Part shown: positions 9,621 to 24,128 of the stretch, piece after piece
How positions within the stretch are numbered: the first letter of the stretch is position 1
How the letters are laid out: each line of letters starts with the position of its first letter
Source of the DNA: a virus
Direction: 5' to 3' (one strand)
IMG/VR virus record: IMGVR_UViG_3300030333_001198
Location: 1-25,662 of that record
Length of the DNA stretch: 25,662 bases
Made by a program: the position numbers and the translations under genes
The notes under the pieces: generated by a model
The model's database searches: none
Told to the model about the DNA's origin: nothing
The model's input: only the letters and a program-made list of their open reading frames with translations

Positions 9621-12600
9621 TTATATCTCCGCTAACCACCATCCTTGATATGTAGATGGTATCGTATTTGCTTCACTATCCTCAGATCCAGCAAAGACTA
9701 GACCAAATCCAGCATTACGTGTCTGAACAATAAGTTCACCACCAGCGTATGCACTACTTAGTCCACCAGCATTTGTTCCTGTAGCATCACCTTGAATTCT
9801 AACACCCAAAGGAGCACGAATGATTAATGATGCATCATAAGAAAGGTTGCCTCCAACCTCAATGAATCTAATCATATCACCAGTCTCTGCATCAGCAGGT
9901 AGTGTGAATACAGTATCAGCAGCAATGGTGATCATGTAGTTCTTACCACTCTCTAGTGTAGCAGTAGATGTAACATATGTCCAATGTCTACCACCGTTCT
10001 TGTTGTAGAATTTCTCAACACCAAATGCATCAATAGCAGCGTCTTGACGTATTCTATAGTTACGATTAGCATTTACACCTAAGTTAGTGATGTTCAATGC
10101 ATAATCTGTAACAGCAGGAGTTGCAGTAGATGTGCTAACAATGTTAACATGACCACCGTTGACTGTTAAATCACCATCACCTAATGCACTACCACTAACA
10201 CCAATTCTTGTATCACCAGTCTGTGCATCAATTTCAAACTTAGCAGTAGAAGCACCACCAAATTGAACTCCAGTTACATCACTGTATACTTTAAAGTCAT
10301 CATTGATTGATAACAGACCACCAATTAATGTGTTACCTGTAGCAGAATTAACATAGAATGAGTTTTCTGCAGAATCAACAGAACCTGCCTGACTATTGTT
10401 ATTAATTCTAAGGTTACCAGATAACCATTCTTCACCATTCTTATTGATGATTGCTTTAGGAGCAGCCTCAGTACCAACACCAACGATAGTTAACTTACCA
10501 TCGCTATCAACTGTTAGTCTTGTAGCAGGTAATGTCTCACCATTGACTATTCTAAACTGGTTATCAGTAGAGTTTGTATCAGCATTACCATAAAGGTTCA
10601 TCGTAAAGTCTTGATCACCAAGAACATTAGATGTAACACCACCATATACAGAGTCAATTACGAATCTAAGTGCATTAGTACCATCATTAACAATAAACTT
10701 CTCAGAGTTAGTATTGTTAACTGATACAATCTGTACAAATTCACCAGATGGGCAAGATGCAGATGGATTCAGTCTTAGATAATCGTTTTGATTGAACTGT
10801 CCACCAAACTCAGCAAGTGATAGTAATGTATCACTGAAGTTAAGAACAGCAGATCCAACTGTACCGCTAATTGGAACTGAAGCACCACCAGGATCAAGTG
10901 ATAACTCAAACCTTGTAACGCTATTACCAGTATCATTAACTGCTTTTACAACGAAGTAAGTTGCTGTAGTATTAATACCAACAATACTTCCAATATTAGT
11001 GAACTTAACTGCATCACCTGTTGCTAGTTCATTAATAGGAACTTCAAGTGAATTAGATACTGGATTGATAGCACTAATTGTAGGTGTAGTAGAGTTCTGT
11101 GGAACACGTCCAAGTAGGAATGTTGCACTTGGTGACTTCTCTAACTTACGAATAACAGTGTTATCATTATGAATTGCTACAGTTGTACAATCTGTACCTC
11201 TAGAAACCTTAACTCTTCTGTTATTCTTATCAGCACCAGGTGAGACAACCTCAACTAATTCTGTTCCGATAATAATAATATCACCAATATTAATACCTTC
11301 CACGTTATTAAGTGGTAGATACTCATAATCTACATCAGCAGAATTATTTGTCCATGTAGTAGTTGAACCACCAACAGCACCAGAAGTATCAATCTTTGTT
11401 TTATCTAATGTTAAAGCAACAGCAACACCTGGTGTACCAGTTACAGAAACCTTATCGGTTGTAGAAGCGGTTGTAGAAACTTGAACATTATTTCCACTTT
11501 GATTAATAATATAGTATATGTCGTTAGTATTAACACCTGTTAATCCACTTACATCAGTGAACTTAACTTGGTTACCATCAATGAAGTAGTTTTCTACTAA
11601 TGTTAGTGTACCATCTGAGTTATTAACACTGCTAACAGTCTCTGCACCATCAATATCATCAACAAACTTATAGAAGTCAACATTAAGATTAGTTAGAGAT
11701 CCAGTAGCATGAGCAACCTTAGATGTACCAAGTTTTGCTCTTTGAACTGTAACAGTACCACTATTGGATCCACCATGCATAGTGGTATCACCATAGATGT
11801 CTGCATCACCATTAACTTTTAAGGAGTTTCTAATAGTTGTTGAACCAGCAACACCACCAAAGTTTAATACAGATGCTCTTGATGCGAAGTTAACTTCAGA
11901 ACCATAACCAGCTCTTGTGAAGAGGTTAATAGTTGCAGAGTTAGACTGTAGATCACCACCGTTAACATCTAAGTCACCGTCAAGTATGGTCTGTGCATTC
12001 TTGATTGTAAATGTAGAGTTAGCAGTGTTACTAAACGCACCACCCATTGTGATGATTGACTTGTTAGTAGCAGCATCAGCAACAACACCAATGTTAACTG
12101 TCGAATCAATAGATGATGTGTGTACATTTAATGTTGTATCAGTAGAAGAAGTACCAATGTCTATTGTCTGAGCTGCTGTAGCATCATCACCAATCTTCAA
12201 AGTGGTTGCATCACCAACAAAATTGACTGTAGTTGCAGTAGTATTAAGAAGATTAAATGATGTAGCACCAGTGGTAATATCACCACCATCAACATTCAAA
12301 TCACCATCGATGTCTGCATTAGCAGTAGCACCAAATAAATGTAATGTTCCTTTAACGAACAAACTAGCATCTAGTTCAGCATTAGTTGCATTAATACCAA
12401 CTCTACCATCTAAAGTAGAAACTCTAAGTGTTGCTGCTGTTTGTGGAGCAGAACTATCACCACCAACTAAGAATGCATTAGCTAATAATGTCTCAACCTT
12501 GGATATAGTTGAGTTAGTAGAGTAACTATCAATATCTTTACCACTGATAAATGCATTACCAACAACATCTAAATTTGCTCTTGGTTTCTGCTGATCAAAG

Positions 12601-15600
12601 ACTACACCACCAGATGTATAGGTTAAGAATCCATGTTGATGTGAATCATGTGCAGTACGAGCAATAGTGTTAACACCCAACTTGTACTGACCAATAGAAT
12701 CAGTATCTGTTCTAAGTGCTTCAGCACCAATTACACCAGTCTCTTTCCAGTTCTCATCTGATCTTGAAAGAAGAGCAGTAGGTTGGTTAGCAGCATCCCA
12801 AGTATATGTTGCTGCTGGTAAAGCATTAGCACATATAAACTCAATGAAATCATCATCAGCACCAGACTGATCTGCTTTAGATACAATCCACTTACCATTA
12901 ATAGCAGTTTGATCAACAAATCCTGTGATACGAATAGTCGAACCAACCTTTAATTTAATACCACCAGATGTATTGGTTAATACACCACTCCACTTAATCT
13001 TAACTGTAGTACCACCATTAGTAGTAACATCTAAGATACTACTTTCAGGAATATCAGTATAGTAGTTTGCAAATATCCAACCAAGTGAACCACTGTTCTC
13101 AACCGATCCACCCTTATAAAGGATATCACCAGCTTGAGGATTAGCATCAGTAGCAGTACCACTATAGTATGATACAATCTGATTAGGATTATATGTTCCA
13201 GCCTGATCAGGTGTTCTATTATTTGGTAGTGCGTCTAACCTATTAAAGTTTGAACGGATACTATATGCTTGACCTGGATTGGATTGTGATCCACGACCTT
13301 TTACGTGTAAAATTGCCGAGGAAATTTTATTCTGACTAATGGTTATATCACCATCATTATTGTCTGCAAATGAAGTCCTAGACAAAGTATTATCTTCATC
13401 AAGACCATCAGTTCTAGGATTAGATCTGACTATTAATGATGGAACCTCAGTTGGTGGCTGAGTACTTATAATAACCTGATTGTTAAGGTTAGATATACCT
13501 TCAACAGTAATCTTATCCTTAAATGTAACAGGAGTATCAAATGATGTTATAAGTTGACCAATAGTATCTGTATCATCTTCAGATGAAACAAGTTGAGCTT
13601 TCTCTAGGAATGTTTCTTCACCAGTGATAGCATCAATCTTCTTGTTACCAATGTATAGGTCACCATTACTGTTAAGACCAGTGTAGAATACAATACCACC
13701 ATCCTCACGTTTTGCTTGTGAGTAGTAGTCTTGGAACTCAGATAGGATAACTTCCTGTCTTGCTGGTAGACCAGTTGAGTAGTTACCTGGACCAAAACCA
13801 AGGTATTCAAACGTATGGTTACCAGATCTAGCAATAGATGGTCTTCTTAGTTCAATGTATACCTTCTGATCATGAATAGATGTTGCATCACCAGCAATAC
13901 CAATCATTCTTTGCTCTGAACCAGCAGTAGCATTACCTGTTTGTGCTTCTATTGTATAGGTATTCTCCTTAAAGAATGGTGTCTCAGTAAGGTCAATAAT
14001 TGCTTCCTTGGTCATTGACCTCTTATAGTCATTGACCCAGACTAAACCATGTGTATAGTTGTCTGCGAAACTGTTAGCAGCAGGTGGATCAGTAATTAAT
14101 GTGTCCTTAGTACCATCGTTATCTGTAACCTGATACCATGTAGGATCGTTCTTATAGTCTAGTGGATATAGTGAGGAGATAGGCTGAGAGAACTTAAAGT
14201 TCTGGAAGTTCTGTCCTACACCAGCACCACGAGGCATTGGAGAAATGTTACCACGAACAGCAGTTAGATAGTAGATACCATCTTGCTGTCCAGCAACACG
14301 TTCCTGAATCTGTTCTGAATCAAAAATGTAGAATGTATCATCAATCTGTGGTACATCTTCTACAGCAATAATCTTAAACTGATTGCCTGTACTATCATCT
14401 AATGTATCACCAACTGTTAAGGTGAATACGTTAGAACCACCAACAACATAAAGGTTATTAGATTTACTATCTCTACCACCATTAACATCTGCTTGCTGTT
14501 TAGCATACACAGCACCTTGAGTGAATGTAGTTGTTGATAGAGGATCATATGTTGGTCTAGCACTTACATCCTTAAGAATAATATAGTGCTTACCACTTAC
14601 CTCGAAGTATGCATGTAGATAACCAAATCCACTACTACCACCACTCCACTGAACTATGTTAGCAGGACTAGATGATATCTTACTTGTAGCAAATGCACCA
14701 CCTTGAGGAGCATCAATCTCAACAGTATGGAATACTGTATTCTTAAGTGATGGTGCGTTAGTATCATCAACTCTATGATCAAATGCTGTTACCTGTAGTA
14801 ATTCTTGTGAACCAACAGTTACCTTTCTACCAGATCTAATACTAAATCTTAAATAGTTGTCTGTGTTAACAACACAAGGACTGCTATCAGGATCATAGAT
14901 GTACTTCTCTTGTAATGTACCAGCCTGTACTGCATTATTAAATTCAGTCTTAGTCATACCAATGCTTTCAGCACTGTTCTGTGACTGTGGGTTTCTAAAG
15001 ACAGCAGAAGCATTATGACCAACAGGTTCTAATGTAATGTTCTGTGGAACAAGATTACGCTTATCATCAGTACGTAACTTAAGAACAAAACCATTATTAG
15101 GTTTCCTTATTGAACCAGGGAATTGCTTAGACTGTACATAACGTAGACGATATATTCTATCATCTGCCTTACGATCATCCTTAGTACGAGTATAGTATGA
15201 ATCTGTTGTCTGTGTACGACCTGAACTACTACTATAATCTGTTATCTTAAGTCTTGTTAGTATGTTATCATCATTAACAGTCTCATCCTTAAGATTCAAA
15301 TACCACAAACCATCATTGATCTTAGGTATTCTACTTGCACTAACATCTACAAATGTAGGATCAAATTTAACTGGTGATGTACGCTTGTTAGCAAGTACAT
15401 ACCAGAACTGTGTTGGGTTGTTAGATAACTGAATCTCTGGTGACCCTAAGATTGCTGCACTAGCAGTCTCAAAGATCTTGAATGTATTCTCTGACTCATA
15501 TCTTACATAAAATTCTTGTACTGCAGAGATTTGTCCAGCACCACTACCAGCAAGTGTAGGTAATGTACCTGTGTTACCATCAGATCCAGAAGCTCTAAAG

Positions 15601-18600
15601 AATACCTTCTGAAGATCACCAGCATTTAGAGCACTGGTTGGCTTATCAAATACATGTGCTACATCTGTCTTGAGTAGTACACTACTTGATCCAGAGAATG
15701 TACACTTATACTCATGTAGATCGTAAGTAGTATCTAACGTAAAGTGTTGTACTAGAATCTCTACATCAGCATCCAAAGATTCTGTCTCTGGTGAGTAGAT
15801 GTAGATACCAGCAGCTGCTGCCTCTAATGACTCAGCAAGCATCAACTTAGTTTGATCACCACCATCAAATATACCACTATAAACATTAGAATCGTTATAA
15901 TTAAATGGTTGTGTGTTACGACCTGGAGCAATTACGAAGTAAGTTCTGTTAGGTTGGAATCCAAGTGGTAAACGAACGTCTCTCTCATCTGGAGTCTTAC
16001 CTGCTTTAGCACGAGCAACCAATCTGACTGGTGTTCCAGTTTCAAACTTATGTGGGTTAGTACCACCAGCATCTATGGTGAATAGAGTTGCACGTTGAGC
16101 AAACTGATCACTAGATGTTGCTGGATTTTCTCTAGCAACTACATTCTGAGAAGGTGATGATTTAGTTGTAGCAGCAAACTGTCCAGCATTTGTAGCATAT
16201 GCAGTAACACCGTTATTAACAGAAGTTACAAATGTATGTGGATAATTACCACCAGTCTTCATACCAAATGGTTTAGACTCTACAAATGTATGTGTATAAG
16301 CACCACCAGCACTCAAAGCACCAGCAGTTGCACTCACAAATGTGTGAGCATAGTTACCACCAGTTGTAATACTATCAGCAGTAGCACTGATAAAGTAATG
16401 TGTTGTTGTGTTAGTAGAAGGAGCAGATGCTAGAACATTAACTGTTACTGTTCCATCCTGTCTGCTCAATCCAAGAGCAGTTGCACCAGTGAATGCATGT
16501 GTAGATGTGTTTGTTGATGGTAGAGCTGGAAGAACCTGTACATCAAATGTATCTGTCTGTACATTAGAGATCTCTAACCAAGCACCAGATGCAGGGTCAT
16601 GTGCTCTAGGATATGTCTTAGCAGCAGTGTTACCATCAAGATCACATGTAAATGTGAGAGAGTTATCTGCTAACTTGATTCTGTTACCATTTTGGAATCC
16701 ATGTCCAACAATGGTTAGAGTCATTATACCTGTTACTGCATTATATACAGCATTTGATACTGTATGAGTAGTAACACCAACAGCAGTAATAGGAATTGCT
16801 GTATCAGATACAGGGTCAGATGAACGAGGATATGTATGCTGAGTTGCACGTGAGTCCTCATCACATTCAAATGTTAATGAATCATCAGCAATCTTAATAC
16901 CATCACCAACGTCTAGTGTGTGGTCACCAATCGCTAATACTAAGTTACCAGTGTTAGGATCATATGATGTACCAGTACCAGCAGTATGAGTTACTAGAGG
17001 TGAAGGTCCAACATGTAGTGTAATTGTATTTGCACCAACTGCCTTAATAGGAATTGCTGTGTTATGTACTGGATCAGAAGCACGTGGATATGTCTTCTGT
17101 GCAGTATTACCATCCATTGCACATGTGAAGGTCAATGAATCGGTAGCAAGTTTAACAGATTGACCTGCTTTGGTGATACTATTAGCAACACCAGAAGCAA
17201 ATGTGTGTGCAGTAATGTTAGTAGAAGGTACTGTTGCTAGTACCTGTACATCAAATGTATCAGCAGTTACAGCAAGAACTTCAATCTCTTTGTTAGCAAC
17301 AGGGTCAGTAGCACGTGGATATGCATGTGTTGTATTGTTACTATCTTCTAAACATGTGAAGCTAACAGCACCAGGTGCTATCTTAACTTGATCACCAATC
17401 ACAAGTCCATGACCTACATGTCTAACAGTCATGATACCTGTTGAAGGATCATATGTTGTACCAGCAGCAGGTGTGAACTTCTGTTCAGCAACTAAATTAT
17501 GAGATCCTATAGTTAGGGTCATATCACCTGTTACTGCATCATATACAGCAGCACTAGGTGTATAGGACACTAGAGGAGTTGTACCAACAATTGCCTGAAT
17601 CTTACCTGATTGCTTTTTAACACCGTTTGCAACGGCAGATACAAAGGTATGAGCAGATGTATCAGGAGATTGTCCTATGTTAATAGTAAATGTATTGCTA
17701 TCAGCAGCAGTAATTTCTAACCACTCACCACTAGCATCATCAGTTGCTCTTGGATATGCATGGTTAGTAGCATTACTATCCTTAGCACAACTAAATGTAA
17801 TTGATCCATCTTCTAGTAGTACACGATCACCAACTCTAGTGATACCATTAGTACCAGCAGATACAAATGTATGTGTAGACTTATCAGAAGAAACCCCAAT
17901 AGTAACTACGAATGTATTCTGTGTTACATCAGAGATTACTAAATCCTTACCTGAAGCAGGGTCAGTTGAACGTGGATAAGAATGTTCAGTAGCATTACTG
18001 TCCTTAAGACATGTAAATGTTAGAGAACTATCTGCTATCCTTATACTATCACCAGCATCAAATCCATGATTGTTAATAGTAATTTCCAACTTACCAGTGA
18101 AAGGATCATATCCAGCACTAGCAGCAGTATGCTGAGTACGTGCATGGAATCCATGACTGTTAATAGTAGATACTAAATCTCCAGTAGAAGGATTATATGT
18201 TGCATCTGTTATTGTATGACCTGTTGTAGGTACTGCTGATACAGCAATAGATGTATTAAACTTAGGATCAGAAGGTCTTGGGTAACTATGAACCGATCCA
18301 TAATTATCCATTTCACATCTAAAGGACAACGCATTGTTATCCAACTTAAATGTATCACCTACATTAAGATTATTGCTACCTATTGTTAATTCTAATACAC
18401 CAGTAGCACCATTATAAGATGCATCAGATACATTATATCCTACAATAGGTGTAGTACCAACATTAACCTTAACTGTATCTGTTGTAAGATCAGTAATACT
18501 TAGAAGTGTATTCTTAAATGCTGGATCTCCTACACGTGGGTATGTGTGGTTGGTAGAGTTGGAGTCCATACCACAAGTAAAGGTCAATGCATCTTGTGCA

Positions 18601-21600
18601 ATGCTTATCTTATTACTTGAAGACAATCCATGACCAGCCATTGTTAGAACTAAGTCACCAGTAGCAGCATCATATGTTGCATCAGATGGTGTGAATTGTC
18701 CTAACTGTTGTTGTTGACTACCAGCAGTATCAATACCATACTCAACTAACTGATAGAGAGTATCCATTGCTGAGATAACATCAGCACAGAATGTACCACC
18801 AACAGGATTAGGATCTGTAGTGATAGTAGTATCAACTGATTGTGTGTATGATGTAGTAACACCAGCTCTAGGAGTATATGTCTGGTTCTGTATTACCTTC
18901 TGTGATACAAGTTTAGCAACTCTAAATGCATAGATTGACTGCTCTTCTTCACCAGCAAGGTGAGCACCTGTAACATATAAGTTAGCAGCATCCCAAACCT
19001 TATTGTTTGCACCAAACTTGACGTTATATGCAACAGCTTCAACTATGTCTACAATATCATCAAAGCAGTTAACATTACCACCAGGAACAGTATGACTAGG
19101 ATACTCAATAAGCATATCCTTGACTGCTATATCAGCAATAAAGTTCTTATTAGCAAGTAATAAATCGTGTGCATCAGCATAACGATCACCTTCTGGGTTA
19201 ATACCTTGGTTGATAATAACCTTAATACCATCCATCAATGTAGTTACAGCAGAAGCAACTGAACTACATGCAGGATATACTGTATCCTGTGTAATATTTG
19301 CATCTACAGTACCAACTTCACTAGACCAGATTCCCTTACGGTCACCATTGTTATCTTCTAGTTTGAATAAAAGATTTGAACTAGCATTAGTTCCAGTAGC
19401 ATTTCTTGATGTACCTGTTGTTAGGTAACTTCTAGAACCAGAAACTACACTACCAAGTTCAATAGTTGTTGGGTTAACAATATTCCTAATGTAAGTGTTG
19501 CTAGGAATATTTGTTGTTACTAAACCACTAACACCTGTATTACCAACAACAGTTGAATACTCCTCAACCTTCATACCAATAGAAAGTCCTACTGTAGAAG
19601 GTACTGTTACTGTAGAAGATCCACTAGTTATTGAACATCCAGTCTGTAAGAAACTCCAGTTACGTGCAGCAGCAATAGCAAGGTCACGAGCATATTCAAA
19701 ACCTTCAATAGTCTCAAATCTCTCGTTATCAATATAGTTTAACTCACCAGCACTAAAGTATGATTCAGCAGCTTGAATAGTGTTGATGTTACCACCAAGA
19801 CGTAAGTCTGAGATAACAGCATCGAGAACCAATCCAACGTCTCTCTGACACTTGCTGATGATAATGTTCTTACTAAGAAGAGCTGGATACTTTGTAGTGA
19901 TATATCCATATGTTTCTTGTGCAATAAGATCCTTATTATCTTCAATTCTATTAGCAGCATCCTGATTCTTGTTATCTACAACTACTGTAGTAGGGTTAAG
20001 AATCTGTAAAGATGATGGGAATGTTTTAAAACCAGATGGTTCTAAAGTAGCATTATAGATCGCACCAGTTGGGGTAGTTTTACCAGCACCCTGACCATAG
20101 GGATCCAACTCAACAAATATCTTTTCTTTACTCTTAGAACCTAATCTAAATCCATCTAATGTAACAGCAGGACGGTTTAAAGGATCAGTAACACCTGTAC
20201 CACCATAATACAACTTAGTATTATTATTAGCAGAGTTAGATGCTTGAACATCAAATGTATAGTAATCTACTGTCTCTGTGTTAGCAGTAGACTCAACAAT
20301 CTTCTTAGGTGGAATAATTGCGTCAATGTAACCACCTTTATCCTGTGCAAAGGCATAACCTTTATGACCTACAGCATGAAGTGATGTGTTACCGAAGTTA
20401 CTGTTAGAGTTGGTGATACTCATATCACCACCACTTTCCATTAGGAAGTGATCAGCAAAACCAACAGCGAAGATGCTAACACACTGAATGAATGCATCAT
20501 TCGTTGCTTTTATGTGGGCGTTTCTCCAGTCATCCTTCCAATATGCATCACCCTTAGTGTGGTAAGGTACTGTTGCAAATGCATCAGAAAGAGATGCTTG
20601 GTTCCAAGTGTTTGTAAACTTATCGTATCTAATGAATGCTCTATCGTCTTTCTGTAGAGATACACCAGTATACTGAGCACAGACCATAGACTTGAAGCCT
20701 GTTGCCTTGCTACCATCTGCTAATAGACCACAGATACCCCATGTTGACCTGATAGACAGGTTGAACATGTATGGAGAAGCAGATTGAACTGAGTCAACCT
20801 CTGCCTGTACATAAGCACCTGAATTAAGACCGTTAGATGCACTATAAGTTTGATTATTCTGAAGACCTAAAGATGCTACAGTACCAGGTAATTGAAAGCT
20901 AAACCTTCTACGATTAGTAGAATCAATACTAGTAACACTAAAAGTACCATTTAATGCATCATCTAATCCATTATTCTGTACAGCAAAGAACTGGTCTTTA
21001 ATGTAACCATGAGCAATCTTAGTTGTTACATTAACACTAACAGTTCCAACAGGTGATGAATCAACAACCTGAATACTTTCAATAGATCTTAAGTCAGATA
21101 AAGGACCAACAATACGGTTCTCAGAAACATTAGCACCGAACTCATTCTGATCATCAATAGTAGGTTGATATTGAGCAAATGCCTTAGCAACCTTAACGTA
21201 ATATAGATCTAATTCTGGTTTCTCTGCATATTGGAATACAGTAATCTTGTGGTGAGAATACTCAGGTATAGCAAGGTTTGTGTTATCACCACTACGGTAA
21301 TAAACCTTACCAACACCAGCATTAGCGTCATATAATGGAGATTTTGTAGTGATATCTCCATCTTTAATGGTAAACTGCCAGATATAAGCACCACCAGTTA
21401 CATTAAAGATTGATGTTCTTGTTTGCTCTTTATCAGCAGGATCAGGAACATATAAAGGACGTATAATAGTTCTACGAAGATCATAACCAATTAGAGAACA
21501 ACCACGAGGGACTATGCAACCACCTTTAGAATCGTTAAACTTGTGAAGGACGTTATCAGGATTGGAAAGATCCACAACCGAAGAATCTGTCCAAGCACTA

Positions 21601-21902
21601 TTAAATTGATCATAACTGAAAACTGGTGTTCCAGAATCAGTTGCTAAACCAGGTCTATTATCAATATAATGGTCACCAGGCATAAGCATGATGGTGAACT
21701 CATCAAATCGATCATTATCAATTCCAGGAGCATAAGAATATCTTGCTACCTCGATAAATGCCCTCTGAATCGTTACAAATGGGCGATTAGGTGAATTACC
21801 TCTATTGTCTAGTTCATCAGATGCATTGAAATCATCTGGTGAGACATACAAATATCTACCAGTTTTACTGGAGATTAAGTTATCTAATCTGGTTAATGGC
21901 AT
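9621..21902 (-). CDS. Giant virion structural / tail-fibre-like protein, 4093 aa
   Basis: This is a single uninterrupted frame of 4093 codons, nearly half the window. Giant virion proteins of this type are known from T4-like cyanophages and are thought to form baseplate or fibre structures. The N-terminus (1-200) looks like a right-handed beta-helix-type domain (P-F-V-T-I-Q-R-A-F and a later C-S-L-I-G-Y-D-L-R-R). Two related helical modules lie near 680-755 and 945-1010. Residues about 1060-1900 hold tandem beta repeats with F-x-C...D...Y-P-R-x-x-D, eight copies. A further segment near 3150-3350 is rich in short T/N/G repeats (T-T-T-V-N-F-V, L-K-I-G-D-D). The C-terminus (about 3900-4093) is non-repetitive and ends Q-G-W-W-L-A-E-I. 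A late promoter precedes it. ATG at 21902 has AAGGA unusually close. Confidence 0.9.
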   Translation of the reverse strand: MPLTRLDNLISSKTGRYLYVSPDDFNASDELDNRGNSPNRPFVTIQRAFIEVARYSYAPGIDNDRFDEFTIMLMPGDHYIDNRPGLATDSGTPVFSYDQFNSAWTDSSVVDLSNPDNVLHKFNDSKGGCIVPRGCSLIGYDLRRTIIRPLYVPDPADKEQTRTSIFNVTGGAYIWQFTIKDGDITTKSPLYDANAGVGKVYYRSGDNTNLAIPEYSHHKITVFQYAEKPELDLYYVKVAKAFAQYQPTIDDQNEFGANVSENRIVGPLSDLRSIESIQVVDSSPVGTVSVNVTTKIAHGYIKDQFFAVQNNGLDDALNGTFSVTSIDSTNRRRFSFQLPGTVASLGLQNNQTYSASNGLNSGAYVQAEVDSVQSASPYMFNLSIRSTWGICGLLADGSKATGFKSMVCAQYTGVSLQKDDRAFIRYDKFTNTWNQASLSDAFATVPYHTKGDAYWKDDWRNAHIKATNDAFIQCVSIFAVGFADHFLMESGGDMSITNSNSNFGNTSLHAVGHKGYAFAQDKGGYIDAIIPPKKIVESTANTETVDYYTFDVQASNSANNNTKLYYGGTGVTDPLNRPAVTLDGFRLGSKSKEKIFVELDPYGQGAGKTTPTGAIYNATLEPSGFKTFPSSLQILNPTTVVVDNKNQDAANRIEDNKDLIAQETYGYITTKYPALLSKNIIISKCQRDVGLVLDAVISDLRLGGNINTIQAAESYFSAGELNYIDNERFETIEGFEYARDLAIAAARNWSFLQTGCSITSGSSTVTVPSTVGLSIGMKVEEYSTVVGNTGVSGLVTTNIPSNTYIRNIVNPTTIELGSVVSGSRSYLTTGTSRNATGTNASSNLLFKLEDNNGDRKGIWSSEVGTVDANITQDTVYPACSSVASAVTTLMDGIKVIINQGINPEGDRYADAHDLLLANKNFIADIAVKDMLIEYPSHTVPGGNVNCFDDIVDIVEAVAYNVKFGANNKVWDAANLYVTGAHLAGEEEQSIYAFRVAKLVSQKVIQNQTYTPRAGVTTSYTQSVDTTITTDPNPVGGTFCADVISAMDTLYQLVEYGIDTAGSQQQQLGQFTPSDATYDAATGDLVLTMAGHGLSSSNKISIAQDALTFTCGMDSNSTNHTYPRVGDPAFKNTLLSITDLTTDTVKVNVGTTPIVGYNVSDASYNGATGVLELTIGSNNLNVGDTFKLDNNALSFRCEMDNYGSVHSYPRPSDPKFNTSIAVSAVPTTGHTITDATYNPSTGDLVSTINSHGFHARTQHTAASAGYDPFTGKLEITINNHGFDAGDSIRIADSSLTFTCLKDSNATEHSYPRSTDPASGKDLVISDVTQNTFVVTIGVSSDKSTHTFVSAGTNGITRVGDRVLLEDGSITFSCAKDSNATNHAYPRATDDASGEWLEITAADSNTFTINIGQSPDTSAHTFVSAVANGVKKQSGKIQAIVGTTPLVSYTPSAAVYDAVTGDMTLTIGSHNLVAEQKFTPAAGTTYDPSTGIMTVRHVGHGLVIGDQVKIAPGAVSFTCLEDSNNTTHAYPRATDPVANKEIEVLAVTADTFDVQVLATVPSTNITAHTFASGVANSITKAGQSVKLATDSLTFTCAMDGNTAQKTYPRASDPVHNTAIPIKAVGANTITLHVGPSPLVTHTAGTGTSYDPNTGNLVLAIGDHTLDVGDGIKIADDSLTFECDEDSRATQHTYPRSSDPVSDTAIPITAVGVTTHTVSNAVYNAVTGIMTLTIVGHGFQNGNRIKLADNSLTFTCDLDGNTAAKTYPRAHDPASGAWLEISNVQTDTFDVQVLPALPSTNTSTHAFTGATALGLSRQDGTVTVNVLASAPSTNTTTHYFISATADSITTGGNYAHTFVSATAGALSAGGAYTHTFVESKPFGMKTGGNYPHTFVTSVNNGVTAYATNAGQFAATTKSSPSQNVVARENPATSSDQFAQRATLFTIDAGGTNPHKFETGTPVRLVARAKAGKTPDERDVRLPLGFQPNRTYFVIAPGRNTQPFNYNDSNVYSGIFDGGDQTKLMLAESLEAAAAGIYIYSPETESLDADVEILVQHFTLDTTYDLHEYKCTFSGSSSVLLKTDVAHVFDKPTSALNAGDLQKVFFRASGSDGNTGTLPTLAGSGAGQISAVQEFYVRYESENTFKIFETASAAILGSPEIQLSNNPTQFWYVLANKRTSPVKFDPTFVDVSASRIPKINDGLWYLNLKDETVNDDNILTRLKITDYSSSSGRTQTTDSYYTRTKDDRKADDRIYRLRYVQSKQFPGSIRKPNNGFVLKLRTDDKRNLVPQNITLEPVGHNASAVFRNPQSQNSAESIGMTKTEFNNAVQAGTLQEKYIYDPDSSPCVVNTDNYLRFSIRSGRKVTVGSQELLQVTAFDHRVDDTNAPSLKNTVFHTVEIDAPQGGAFATSKISSSPANIVQWSGGSSGFGYLHAYFEVSGKHYIILKDVSARPTYDPLSTTTFTQGAVYAKQQADVNGGRDSKSNNLYVVGGSNVFTLTVGDTLDDSTGNQFKIIAVEDVPQIDDTFYIFDSEQIQERVAGQQDGIYYLTAVRGNISPMPRGAGVGQNFQNFKFSQPISSLYPLDYKNDPTWYQVTDNDGTKDTLITDPPAANSFADNYTHGLVWVNDYKRSMTKEAIIDLTETPFFKENTYTIEAQTGNATAGSEQRMIGIAGDATSIHDQKVYIELRRPSIARSGNHTFEYLGFGPGNYSTGLPARQEVILSEFQDYYSQAKREDGGIVFYTGLNSNGDLYIGNKKIDAITGEETFLEKAQLVSSEDDTDTIGQLITSFDTPVTFKDKITVEGISNLNNQVIISTQPPTEVPSLIVRSNPRTDGLDEDNTLSRTSFADNNDGDITISQNKISSAILHVKGRGSQSNPGQAYSIRSNFNRLDALPNNRTPDQAGTYNPNQIVSYYSGTATDANPQAGDILYKGGSVENSGSLGWIFANYYTDIPESSILDVTTNGGTTVKIKWSGVLTNTSGGIKLKVGSTIRITGFVDQTAINGKWIVSKADQSGADDDFIEFICANALPAATYTWDAANQPTALLSRSDENWKETGVIGAEALRTDTDSIGQYKLGVNTIARTAHDSHQHGFLTYTSGGVVFDQQKPRANLDVVGNAFISGKDIDSYSTNSTISKVETLLANAFLVGGDSSAPQTAATLRVSTLDGRVGINATNAELDASLFVKGTLHLFGATANADIDGDLNVDGGDITTGATSFNLLNTTATTVNFVGDATTLKIGDDATAAQTIDIGTSSTDTTLNVHTSSIDSTVNIGVVADAATNKSIITMGGAFSNTANSTFTIKNAQTILDGDLDVNGGDLQSNSATINLFTRAGYGSEVNFASRASVLNFGGVAGSTTIRNSLKVNGDADIYGDTTMHGGSNSGTVTVQRAKLGTSKVAHATGSLTNLNVDFYKFVDDIDGAETVSSVNNSDGTLTLVENYFIDGNQVKFTDVSGLTGVNTNDIYYIINQSGNNVQVSTTASTTDKVSVTGTPGVAVALTLDKTKIDTSGAVGGSTTTWTNNSADVDYEYLPLNNVEGINIGDIIIIGTELVEVVSPGADKNNRRVKVSRGTDCTTVAIHNDNTVIRKLEKSPSATFLLGRVPQNSTTPTISAINPVSNSLEVPINELATGDAVKFTNIGSIVGINTTATYFVVKAVNDTGNSVTRFELSLDPGGASVPISGTVGSAVLNFSDTLLSLAEFGGQFNQNDYLRLNPSASCPSGEFVQIVSVNNTNSEKFIVNDGTNALRFVIDSVYGGVTSNVLGDQDFTMNLYGNADTNSTDNQFRIVNGETLPATRLTVDSDGKLTIVGVGTEAAPKAIINKNGEEWLSGNLRINNNSQAGSVDSAENSFYVNSATGNTLIGGLLSINDDFKVYSDVTGVQFGGASTAKFEIDAQTGDTRIGVSGSALGDGDLTVNGGHVNIVSTSTATPAVTDYALNITNLGVNANRNYRIRQDAAIDAFGVEKFYNKNGGRHWTYVTSTATLESGKNYMITIAADTVFTLPADAETGDMIRFIEVGGNLSYDASLIIRAPLGVRIQGDATGTNAGGLSSAYAGGELIVQTRNAGFGLVFAGSEDSEANTIPSTYQGWWLAEI
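16190..18725 (-). repeat. Tandem protein repeats inside the giant structural gene
   Basis: Translated repeats of roughly 75-110 residues recur here. Each has a (V/S)-x-Y-(D/N)-x-x-T-G-x-(L/M) opening, a G-H-G-(L/F) or similar turn, a (L/I)-(T/S)-F-x-C strand, D-(S/G)-N, then (H/K)-x-Y-P-R-x-x-D. I count eight Y-P-R units, with HTYPRVGDP, HSYPRPSDP, HSYPRSTDP, HAYPRATDD, HAYPRATDP, KTYPRASDP, HTYPRSSDP and KTYPRAHDP as their markers. One unit (D-A-T-Y-N-P-S-T-G) is cut short. At the downstream end the pattern decays into short H-T-F-V-S-A-T units (about 16190-16400). The DNA copies have diverged, so the array is old rather than a recent slippage product. Confidence 0.85.
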
Positions 21903-21943: not shown

Positions 21944-22519
21944 TTATTTATCACAGTTCTTTTCTGCTTCCCCATTGCTATTTAGATGTGGCGTAAAGAA
22001 ATTAATGTTAATTACTGACTTAATTCTCATATCAGTTTGACTAACACCTCGATGTTTAAGATTTGATGGAAATTGGACGTATCTATTTGCTCTACATCCA
22101 ACCTTAGATCCATCTTCAAATTCGGTATAACCATTGCATGTATTGAGATAATATATGCCTGTAGTCATATAATCACACGAACCTTGTTCATCGCTATAAT
22201 CGGTATGATAATCACTTATATATGCTTCCTTAAATAAAGGTTGCATATTTGCCTTTATCCTATACAACCCAATATATTCTATTCTACTTAAAATAGGAAG
22301 CATAAGATTAAAGTGATCAGATTTTTTGTGTATCAATCCACCATAATGATTCTCCGATCTAAAGAATGGATGAACAAACTGAAAATTCTCTAATGAATCA
22401 GAATTACCACCAACCTTATACTCATTATAATGCCAAGGGAATTCTTGAAAGAATAAAGTATCAAATAATACCTTATACTCTGCCTTTGTTAAAAAGTCAT
22501 CAGTCAACCTTATAGTCAT
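21944..22519 (-). CDS. 2OG-Fe(II) oxygenase-like protein
   Basis: The 191-residue product shows the oxygenase pattern. Y-R-I-K-A-N-M (86-92) is followed by Y-H105-T-D107, then M-T-T-G-I-Y-Y-L-N-T-C-N-G-Y-T-E-F (118-134), R-Y-V-Q-F-P-S-N-L-K-H156-R-G and D-M-R165-I-K-S-V-I-N-I. H105, D107 and H156 are the predicted iron ligands and R165 the 2OG contact. Substrate is unknown. Similar small proteins are often found beside structural genes in cyanophages. The start ATG overlaps the upstream TGA as ATGA, so it is translationally coupled to the other oxygenase-like gene. The late promoter of the giant gene sits in its last codons. Confidence 0.83.
   Translation of the reverse strand: MTIRLTDDFLTKAEYKVLFDTLFFQEFPWHYNEYKVGGNSDSLENFQFVHPFFRSENHYGGLIHKKSDHFNLMLPILSRIEYIGLYRIKANMQPLFKEAYISDYHTDYSDEQGSCDYMTTGIYYLNTCNGYTEFEDGSKVGCRANRYVQFPSNLKHRGVSQTDMRIKSVININFFTPHLNSNGEAEKNCDK
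21945..21952 (-). promoter_or_regulatory. T4-type late promoter before the giant structural gene
   Basis: The minus strand reads GATAAATA, matching the NATAAATA late-promoter element of T4-like cyanophages. It overlaps the last codons and stop of the upstream oxygenase gene and lies 42 bases before the giant gene's ATG. It is the only good match I found in front of a gene in this window, and it stands at the head of the structural block. Confidence 0.65.
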
Positions 22520-23127
22520 TTTTTGCCACGAGATTTTTTCTTGGATCTGAAGAATGCAGTATCACGATAGGTAAACGCTATGGTTTTTCTTTCCAACCAT
22601 GCAAAATTATTAGGAGCAGATCCTCTATGTTTATAGTTAGCTTGGAATAAAACACCACGATTAGGTCTGTATGGTGTCATATAATGCTCATCATTCTCAC
22701 CAACACAAACAAAATCTCCACCCCACTGAGATTCCCAACCTTGGCAAACCATAACAATCATGGTGTACATATGTTCATCTCCATCAAAATGGAATGTACC
22801 CTCTTGTCCTGGAAATTGTATGTTAGAATTAATTCTCTCTAAGTATACTTGATGTTTTACTTGTTTTTGTACAGCATATTTTATTTTCTCTCCAATATTA
22901 ATGAGACATAGATTATCTCCTAGTTCATCCTCAGTTGGTTTATGTATAGCACCCCATTTAGGATAAGGGACATGCCCCATCCTATCTTTAATCTTAGTAC
23001 CATCACACTTATACGACCAATGCTCTTTCTTATAAAACATCCAAGGGTTATATTCTCCCCTGAACTCATCCATCAGAGCAAAGTAGTCATCACGTGATAG
23101 TATATTATCGTAGATCCATAGTTTCAT
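22516..23127 (-). CDS. 2OG-Fe(II) oxygenase-like protein
   Basis: I choose the ATG at 23127, giving 203 residues (M-K-L-W-I-Y-D-N). The frame stays open to 23193, but that extension would run into the 3' part of the tmRNA and is not oxygenase-like; an ATG at 23154 is a second alternative. In the 203-residue form, L-E-R-I-N-S-N-I-Q-F leads to F-H113-F-D115-G-D. Then come G-G-D-F-V-C-V-G (136-143), R-P-N-R-G-V-L-F (154-161), Y-K-H167-R-G and R180-K-T-I-A-F. These give the H-x-D...H...R set. The C-terminus is strongly basic (K-K-K-S-R-G-K-K), which could favour contact with nucleic acid or acidic surfaces. It overlaps the next gene by ATGA. Confidence 0.8.
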   Translation of the reverse strand: MKLWIYDNILSRDDYFALMDEFRGEYNPWMFYKKEHWSYKCDGTKIKDRMGHVPYPKWGAIHKPTEDELGDNLCLINIGEKIKYAVQKQVKHQVYLERINSNIQFPGQEGTFHFDGDEHMYTMIVMVCQGWESQWGGDFVCVGENDEHYMTPYRPNRGVLFQANYKHRGSAPNNFAWLERKTIAFTYRDTAFFRSKKKSRGKK

Positions 23128-23135
23128 ATTATTAA

Positions 23136-23152
23136 GGGGGAATTCCACCCCC
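23136..23152 (-). terminator. G5/C5 hairpin between tmRNA and oxygenase gene
   Basis: On the minus strand five G, a seven-base loop and five C are followed by TTAATAAT. It lies between the tmRNA and the ATG at 23127. It could end the tmRNA transcript or sit in the 5' leader of the downstream gene. The U-run is poor, so termination is doubtful. Confidence 0.35.
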
Positions 23153-23164
23153 ATATAGTCATTT

Positions 23165-23415
23165 GGGTAACAAGGCTGACTTAACCCCGTCATTCCTGAT
23201 TATACAGTCGCTAAAGAGCGAGCACCCTCTAGGTGAGGGATGCGAACGAATCCTACGATGTTATTCGCAGGAGGTGTATCTGTTTTTGCAGATGTGGTTT
23301 GCTTATCCAAGCAGGTTTCAGTCCCGATCCTTATACCCTGTCGAAGCCATGGCATCCCCTCGAATGGAGATGACGGGAATCGAACCCGTGTCCAGAATGT
23401 AGGTGTCGTCACCTA
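23165..23415 (-). ncRNA. ssrA: Permuted two-piece tmRNA (ssrA)
   Basis: The minus strand holds tmRNA parts in permuted order. First is the acceptor piece: T arm at 23389-23373 (ACGGG, loop TTCGATT, CCCGT), then CATCTCC plus discriminator A ending at 23365, with no encoded CCA. After only five bases (TTCGA) the coding piece starts at 23359 with GGGGATG, which pairs with CATCTCC with one G-U. It continues through the D-arm-like CTTCGACAGGG. Bases 23340-23329 pair, with wobbles and mismatches, with 23404-23393 before the T arm, as expected for helix 2. A tag frame starts at GCG 23268 and ends at TAA 23202-23200. This permuted layout is the one known in marine alpha-cyanobacteria. It would rescue stalled ribosomes during infection. 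The outer ends and cleavage sites are approximate. Confidence 0.85.
23200..23268 (-). other. tmRNA proteolysis/rescue tag reading frame, 22 codons
   Basis: From GCG at 23268 the frame reads A-N-N-I-V-G-F-V-R, then I-P-H-L-E-G-A-R-S-L-A-T-V, then TAA. The first nine residues fit the cyanobacterial tag pattern A-N-(N/K)-I-V-x-F-x-R. The rest is longer than known cyanobacterial tags (about 14-16 residues, ending in AA) and ends in L-A-T-V. Two hairpins fall within it (CCCTC/GAGGG and TCGCT/AGCGA), probably parts of the tmRNA fold near the stop. Confidence 0.75.
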
Positions 23416-23429
23416 TCCTCAAAAGAGGA
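23416..23429 (-). other. Hairpin spacer between tRNA-Thr and tmRNA
   Basis: The minus strand reads TCCTC, TTTT, GAGGA, a perfect five-pair stem with a four-base loop directly after the tRNA 3' end. A second stem (TAGGTG/CACCTA, 23400-23415) follows at once. They are likely processing structures of a shared tRNA-tmRNA precursor, or the 5' part of the acceptor piece. Confidence 0.45.
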
Positions 23430-23501
23430 TGCCATCAGAGGGATTTGAACCCCCGACCTTGGCTTTACAAAAGCCCTGCACTACCACTGTGCTATGATGG
23501 C
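23430..23501 (-). tRNA. tRNA-Thr (anticodon UGU)
   Basis: Seventy-two bases fold as a cloverleaf. The acceptor GCCATCA pairs perfectly with TGATGGC, with discriminator A and no encoded CCA. The D stem is GCAC/GTGC. The anticodon loop TTTGTAA gives UGU, with stem GGGCT/AGCCA having one closing mismatch. The T stem is GGGGG/CCCTC with loop TTCAAAT. It lies directly after the 28-aa ORF and just before the tmRNA acceptor piece. Phage tRNA-Thr(UGU) would read ACA codons, suiting the AT-rich, Thr-rich structural genes. Confidence 0.92.
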
Positions 23502-23587
23502 TATAAATGTGGATCGTAGTGTCTCATGTATGCTACGAAAAGGATAGAACCTGCTGCTAGAGCTGTTGGAATTAAAAACAATGGCAT
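23501..23587 (-). CDS. 28-aa single-span membrane peptide
   Basis: An ATG at 23587, four bases after the cpeT stop, opens a 28-codon frame ending in TAG whose last base is the first base of tRNA-Thr. The peptide begins M-P-L-F-L-I-P-T-A-L and continues A-A-G-S-I-L-F-V-A-Y-M before a polar tail R-H-Y-D-P-H-L. Residues about 3-21 would make one short transmembrane helix with a short His/Asp-containing tail. The size and shape recall the tiny single-helix subunits of photosynthetic complexes, but I do not recognise it as any specific one. The tight fit between cpeT and the tRNA, without wasted bases, supports a real gene. It has no strong Shine-Dalgarno and may rely on coupling to cpeT. Confidence 0.6.
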   Translation of the reverse strand: MPLFLIPTALAAGSILFVAYMRHYDPHL

Positions 23588-23591
23588 AATC

Positions 23592-24128
23592 TTAACTTGG
23601 TTGTATTATATCATGACGGCGATAAAATTTCAAGTGCCCCCACTTAGCACCCCAGACCTGTTGATCTGTCTCTAAGTCGAAACCCTTATCGAGAACCCAA
23701 TAAGAATCATCAGTCAATTCAATCTCATTAAGAAGGTATGTCTCTTTACCCTTGTACATTACTGTACAGTCTGAGCTTGCTGTCTTGCCGTGATAGACAA
23801 CACCAGACCTTACGAATTTAATATCACACCCCAGTCTCCTCTGCAAAGGAGCTTCTCTTAGTTTATTTAGATTTGAACACAAAACATATTGTCTAGGATC
23901 ATCTATGGAATAATTCTGAACAATATAACCGTCATCAACTGTAATAACTTTCAAGATAAACTGTCTGTATGGATCTTTAGGACAATAATTATAACACTGC
24001 TCACCATAAAATATCCCATCGCTTAACCTAACGTGGGATATATTAATATGAGCATAACGACTGGGATCCTTCATTGCTTGATGCTGGTTACTAAAGTGAC
24101 CAACTAAGCAATCTTCAAAGCTTTTCAT
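23592..24128 (-). CDS. cpeT: CpeT/CpcT-family bilin lyase homologue
   Basis: The 178-residue product matches the CpeT/CpcT family, which attaches or chaperones bilins for phycobiliproteins in cyanobacteria. Visible family marks are F-Y-G-E-Q-C-Y-N-Y (40-48), P-Y-R-Q-F-I-L-K-V (53-61), G-C-D-I-K-F (100-105), Y-L-L-N-E-I-E-L (131-138), W-V-L-D-K-G-F-D (144-151) and V-W-G-A-K-W-G-H-L-K-F (158-168). cpeT is a recurrent auxiliary metabolic gene of cyanophages; a phage homologue is known to bind phycoerythrobilin. It would act on the host light-harvesting antenna during infection. I choose ATG at 24128 over the TTG at 24143 of the longer frame. It overlaps the upstream 92-aa gene by 14 bases and is followed by the 28-aa peptide. 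Confidence 0.88.
   Translation of the reverse strand: MKSFEDCLVGHFSNQHQAMKDPSRYAHINISHVRLSDGIFYGEQCYNYCPKDPYRQFILKVITVDDGYIVQNYSIDDPRQYVLCSNLNKLREAPLQRRLGCDIKFVRSGVVYHGKTASSDCTVMYKGKETYLLNEIELTDDSYWVLDKGFDLETDQQVWGAKWGHLKFYRRHDIIQPS

Follow-up and report, generated by a model that had tools for sequence, protein, structure and literature searches.

Cyanobacterial-type permuted tmRNAs of phages: a lineage with its own hairpin and its own tag evolution

The DNA analysed here (the window) comprises all 25,662 bases of one IMG/VR contig, a fragment from a cyanomyovirus, and carries on its minus strand a permuted tmRNA gene of the cyanobacterial type. This gene belongs to a lineage of such tmRNAs in phages whose novelty lies in its own tag evolution and its own hairpin. 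Overall, we read the locus as functional trans-translation with a degradation tag that has been re-tuned and, we infer, is probably weaker. The presence of a permuted tmRNA in a cyanophage is already known and is not new. Of 18,146 phage genomes surveyed, 402 had a tmRNA; 53 of the 133 unique structures were two-piece, 50 of these 53 came from marine or aquatic phages, and tmRNAs of the cyanobacterial lineage grouped with those of their phages (PMC9004378). A tmRNA database holds 79 unique phage sequences (PMC11915505). Whether cyanophage tmRNAs had been catalogued was left open by the initial sequence-only reading of this DNA, and at survey level they have been (PMC9004378, PMC11915505). The more unusual part, a tag C-terminus unlike that of the hosts, was absent from that reading.

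The sequence-only reading had proposed a permuted two-piece tmRNA of cyanobacterial type, to be checked with the cyano_tmRNA model or ARAGORN, and both methods find it. In a cmscan search RF01851 (cyano_tmRNA) matched 23446-23137 (-) over the full model (1-288) with 134.8 bits (E 7.4e-37; gathering threshold 70), RF04321 (tmRNA_permuted) matched 23413-23261 (-) with 72.5 bits, and ARAGORN called a permuted tmRNA (tmRNA*) at 23109-23454 (-). The region first proposed, 23165-23415, lies at the right locus but is too short, with the outer hairpins cut off. The upstream 17 nt of the RF01851 match are shared with a tRNA-Thr gene and probably lie outside the mature RNA. No spacer separates the two genes, with the tRNA-Thr 3' end at 23430 and the first tmRNA hairpin starting at 23429. 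A phage contig with a tRNA and cpeT as neighbours had also been proposed, and these two genes were recovered by ARAGORN and by Pfam and PHROG matches, respectively (Table 1). A tRNA-Thr gene precedes 39 of 90 phage tmRNAs and none of 113 host tmRNAs among the host matches listed. Within 22900-23800 we found no credible match (E up to 5) to the glutamine riboswitch reported for Melnitz and AG-345-P14 or to another RNA element; a weak Fluoride match of 17.4 bits (gathering score 34) falls on the pseudoknot and terminal hairpin of the tmRNA and was judged to be due to chance.

Tail-fibre and 2OG-oxygenase genes occupy much of the remaining window, as is cyanomyovirus-like. A single ORF of 4093 residues with many repeated stretches (9621-21902) probably encodes a very long tail-fibre-like protein. 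Two adjacent minus-strand proteins (21947-23127) both match PHROG 274 'DNA endonuclease V'; one of them also matches Pfam 2OG-Fe(II) oxygenase, below the cut-off, and the PHROG is possibly misnamed. A short ORF spanning the tmRNA (23200-23412) results from translating the RNA gene as if it were protein-coding. In S-SSM7 an annotated hypothetical CDS likewise overlies the phage's own tmRNA; hypothetical CDS annotations of this kind, SSSM7_025 (L002, 4004-4222) and S250808_204 (L254, 2516-2656), are probably not proteins.

Table 1. Features of the permuted tmRNA locus in window coordinates
Feature	Position	Strand	Basis
Permuted tmRNA gene (cyano_tmRNA), whole model	23137..23446	-	cmscan RF01851, ARAGORN
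tRNA-Thr(TGT), directly upstream of tmRNA	23430..23501	-	ARAGORN
cpeT, upstream of tmRNA	24125-23592		Pfam CpeT 141.5 bits; PHROG CpeT-like antenna protein
Hairpin TCCTC-TTTT-GAGGA, 5' end of acceptor piece	23416..23429	-	sequence; first helix of RF01851
Long P2-type helix, 5' strand	23393..23415	-	covarying helices 1-3
T arm ACGGG-TTCGATT-CCCGT	23373..23389	-	helix 4: 4/5 pairs compensated, 100% of cells paired
3' acceptor strand CATCTCC (23372-23366) and A73 (23365)	23365..23372	-	helix 5
Intervening segment TTCGA, 5 nt	23360..23364	-	sequence
5' acceptor strand GGGGATG, start of coding piece	23353..23359	-	paired to 23366-23372; compensatory pairs differ among phages
P2-type helix, 3' strand	23319..23341	-	covariation
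Hairpin TGCTT-GGAT-AAGCA, common to hosts	23300..23313	-	covariation and host comparison
Phage-specific hairpin ATCTG-CAAAAA-CAGAT, 9 nt before resume codon	23278..23293	-	covariation; absent from hosts
Tag frame: resume codon GCG (23268-23266), 22 codons ANNIVGFVRIPHLEGARSLATV, stop TAA	23200..23268	-	alignment to host resume codon
Pseudoknot after tag, helices 8 and 9	23157..23191	-	helix 9: 5/5 pairs compensated, 94.8% paired
Terminal hairpin GGGGG-TGGAATT-CCCCC	23136..23152	-	helix 10, 96.1% of cells paired

The pieces follow the permuted order, with the acceptor 3' piece, a 5-nt spacer and the 5' coding piece, and the motifs picked out at first sight (T arm, CATCTCC, discriminator A and GGGGATG) all occur in that order. 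Between GGGGATG (23359-23353) and the tag frame (23268-23200) comes TTCGACAGGG. The alanine identity elements G3-U70 and A73 are both kept in the window, and CCA is not encoded at the 3' acceptor. Among the phages A73 is retained and the G3-U70 wobble is preserved in 30 of 31 rows, whereas columns 83/105 are paired as CG, UA, GC or AU. The window RNA folds better than 200 of 200 shuffled versions (z -3.7). In the alignment of 31 phage rows, 92% of the cells at 51 pairs are paired and 26 pairs carry double-sided changes. Cells with double-sided compensation number 169 among these phage relatives; shuffles gave 55.7, and no slid version of the structure exceeded 34. Rows that are related may score above shuffles for other reasons, but the slid control speaks against this. 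RNAalifold placed double changes in 24 of 45 pairs. Two further RNAalifold helices (columns 34-38/264-268 and 192-198/205-211) overlap the tag frame, show little or poor variation and were not used.

The comparative set comprises 94 phage-side and at least 118 host tmRNAs with an ANNIV-type tag, obtained from pattern scans of viral contigs and bacterial genomes and from phage records. The hosts are a sample among the matches listed, and the third viral scan was keyed on the first part of the tag only, so that the tag end and the acceptor were unselected. Other lineages matched in IMG/VR, whose tags include ANDEKFALAA and GTYNAPLALAA, were set aside. Matches in the phage collection were S-SSM7, S-SSM6a, Sf-FS3, S-CAM1, S-CAM3, AG-345-P14 and S-CRM01, and none of the annotated cyanophage records examined for these matches has a tmRNA annotation. 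In a tree built without the tag columns, the phage tmRNAs form a single group apart from the host ones (100/99); S-CRM01 was omitted from the second tree because of its long branch. The nearest relatives of the window tmRNA by tree are the IMG/VR loci L027 and L047, with the tag ANNIVAFTRIPYAAARTLATV. S-CRM01 (L253) itself contains at about 2488-2709 an unannotated and very divergent permuted tmRNA without the extra hairpin, whose tag ANNVVKFRRTAVTSLVAAL ends in AAL. Another locus (L204, 197-493) is phage-side by tree and hairpin and has a tag identical to that of hosts (ANNIVRFSRQAAPVAA); it may be an intermediate or a host fragment.

When compared with the picocyanobacterial tmRNAs of RF01851, the window RNA has the same piece order, T arm, G3-U70 acceptor, P2 helix, tag start (ANNIV or ANKIV), pseudoknot and terminal hairpin. 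In contrast to these hosts, it has an extra hairpin, 31 rather than 12 nt before the resume codon, and a tag of 22 codons ending in LATV rather than 16 ending in PVAA. The tmRNAs of S-SSM7, Sf-FS3, S-CAM1, S-CAM3 and AG-345-P14 share with it the side of the tree, the extra hairpin and, in several cases, neighbouring tRNAs, but differ in tag sequence. The two-piece tmRNAs of the methylophage Melnitz and of pelagiphages (PMC9004378) are likewise phage-encoded, permuted and marine; however, they are of the alphaproteobacterial type, the tag of HTVC008M is canonical and ends in ALAA, and Melnitz has a glutamine riboswitch that finds no match at the window locus. The tmRNAs of Bacillus phage G and mycobacteriophages (PMC4131195) are also phage-encoded. 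The phage G tag, AKLNITNNELQVA, lacks an AA end as the window tag does, whereas the phage G tmRNA consists of a single piece and its lineage is unrelated.

The phage-only hairpin lies between the hairpin shared with hosts and the resume codon, a distance of 12 nt in 109 of 114 hosts (among the host matches listed) versus 31 nt in 59 of 69 phages. The phage insert consists of a 4-6 bp hairpin that ends about 9 nt before the resume codon. Its versions, including ATCTG/CAGAT and AGATG/CATCT, covary, with 24 compensated cells versus 9.7 in shuffles and 12 in the best slid version, and double changes fall in only two of the five pairs. Alignment-based support for this predicted hairpin is good, not overwhelming. 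It is seemingly missing in S-CRM01, L031 and L039.

In most phages the spacer between the two halves is 4-11 nt long. Ten phage tmRNAs instead have a spacer of 79-88 nt that encloses an intact tRNA gene, in at least two separate forms: tRNA-Tyr in L199, L210 and L215, and tRNA-Asn in L203, L205, L211, L232, L243, L245 and L246. Such an arrangement is easiest to understand if the mature halves separate, and the spacer tRNAs of these ten relatives thus give indirect support to a mature RNA of two molecules; the TTCGA segment of the window would be lost on cutting of the precursor into two pieces. In one locus (L240, reverse strand), a 220-nt spacer of repeated GTTAGTATTC-type stretches stands just before the tag piece and holds no tRNA. 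A tRNA-Ala in the spacer of one nominally archaeal tmRNA has been called unique (PMC11915505), and the present set contributes further natural examples of entire tRNA genes separating tmRNA halves.

The largest departure from the hosts lies in the tag. All 118 host tags among the host matches listed, at least 14 of them distinct, have 16 residues and an AA end. The phages have 33 distinct tags of 14-25 residues, and 28 of the 33 do not end in AA; the ends are TA (15), TV (6), AA (5), LA (3), AV (2), AL (1) and PA (1). The window tag ANNIVGFVRIPHLEGARSLATV, ending in LATV, is among those without the ClpXP-type Ala-Ala degron, which is usual for a tmRNA tag but not strictly defining. Its open frame is predicted from a resume codon aligned to that of the hosts, which replaced a longer start called by ARAGORN (AKTDTPPANNIV...). 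The N-terminal part, ANNIV.F.R, is almost fixed among phages. The last five residues follow a loose rule, with a variable first position followed mostly by L/F/M, A/V, T/A/L/P and A/V. With the tag omitted from the tree, the phage part (tree length 5.2) requires at least nine changes between AA and not-AA and the host part (2.9) requires none; tag length changed at least 14 times among phages and never over 99 distinct host rows (among the host matches listed). The AA end is kept in some phage lineages (STVAA, 26 of 94 records). A general loss of the AA end by phage tmRNAs is ruled out by the pelagiphage HTVC008M, whose tag is ANFNEYALAA.

As judged from substitution patterns, the tag frame is under frame-specific purifying selection among the relatives. 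The values of pN/pS by length class are 0.21, 0.34, 0.46, 0.76 and 0.44, and the third codon position is the most variable in every class. The 22-codon class of the window gives 0.76, the weakest signal, from seven sequences that mix several lineages. These patterns bear on two other explanations. The first is that the gene is a relic, recently captured from a host and decaying in the phage genome, as the unlike tag and the sporadic presence among cyanophages (18 records with a match) could suggest; one phage lineage with compensated pairs and purifying selection is not decay, and we consider this already disfavoured explanation very improbable. The second, improbable but less so, is a decoy that binds SmpB or stalled ribosomes, does not carry tagging through and so inhibits the host system. 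The mycobacteriophage DS6A has a reduced tmRNA, with the tRNA-like domain only, that is reported to be inhibitory (PMC4131195, PMC11915505), but here the entire mRNA-like part is kept under selection, as are the resume region, an open frame for the tag and the pseudoknot, none of which a decoy would need.

With the presence and order of the parts, the covariation-supported structure, the kept identity elements and the selection on the tag frame in relatives observed, we consider it likely that the window encodes a functional permuted tmRNA that is processed and charged by the host and tags at stalled ribosomes. Its expression, processing and activity in infected cells are what we infer from these features. 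SmpB need not be encoded beside ssrA. Ten related phage records (nine of 178-250 kb and one 79-kb fragment) gave no match to SmpB (PF01668) or ClpP (PF00574), with positive Synechococcus elongatus controls for both; the window is itself a fragment. With neither protein present in the phages examined, the RNA must depend on partners from the host, and host SmpB is the presumed partner of the window tmRNA. The initial idea of a phage-supplied ribosome rescue is therefore supported only for an RNA that works with host proteins; host mRNA decay may be the trigger, as that reading suggested. In the proposed course of events, the tmRNA would be co-transcribed with tRNA-Thr, and host tRNA-processing enzymes would cut the precursor at G1 and after A73. 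The spacer would be lost and CCA added, with the two pieces remaining paired. Host alanyl-tRNA synthetase would charge the RNA via G3-U70. In infected cells, host SmpB and EF-Tu would deliver it to ribosomes that have stalled on broken messages, where translation would resume at GCG and add the tag.

The altered tag may cause tagged proteins to be degraded more slowly than host-tagged ones, or by another protease, because its last residues have left the Ala-Ala end kept by the sampled hosts; we hold this view tentatively. The phage would then free ribosomes while sparing its own incomplete proteins the full force of proteolysis by the host. For E. coli ClpXP, replacing one or the other of the two final alanines increases KM but hardly alters Vmax (PMC7652416). 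For Synechocystis, the E. coli tag tails AAV and ASV are described as weaker than LVA in the account of Huang et al. 2010 given by PMC3446811. LATV would by analogy be expected to work less strongly as a tag than PVAA. On the other hand, the two ends may lead to equally good degradation, since V, T and A at the C-terminus are all small and the specificity of picocyanobacterial ClpX is taken only by analogy. The phage RNA might thus be a plain substitute for the host tmRNA, its tag degraded equally and varying by neutral drift in a degron that needs a small hydrophobic end. The last four tag positions do stay hydrophobic or small, ANNIV.F.R is nearly fixed, and AA is retained in some lineages, so that its loss is not required for phage use. 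However, the repeated changes in the last two residues and in length on the phage side have no counterpart in the 99 distinct host rows among the matches listed, and recognition by E. coli ClpXP is weakened when one of the two final alanines is changed (PMC7652416); we regard such a substitute as conceivable and somewhat doubtful. A broader form of the re-tuning hypothesis is a slightly more speculative possibility than slower or redirected degradation. In this form the tag would have been repeatedly re-tuned away from the degron of the host, and stalled ribosomes would be freed during infection while the tagged products evade, delay or divert proteolysis by the host; the phage-only hairpin just before the resume codon would go together with this phage-modified quality-control tag.

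The set includes GenBank cyanophage records that leave the tmRNA gene unannotated or place hypothetical CDSs over it. The locus is of interest for the tag hypothesis rather than for simply carrying the gene. A tag end unlike that of the host in most phage lineages makes the question of why lytic phages carry tmRNA testable. If the phage tag is weaker, these phages would have uncoupled ribosome rescue from protein destruction.
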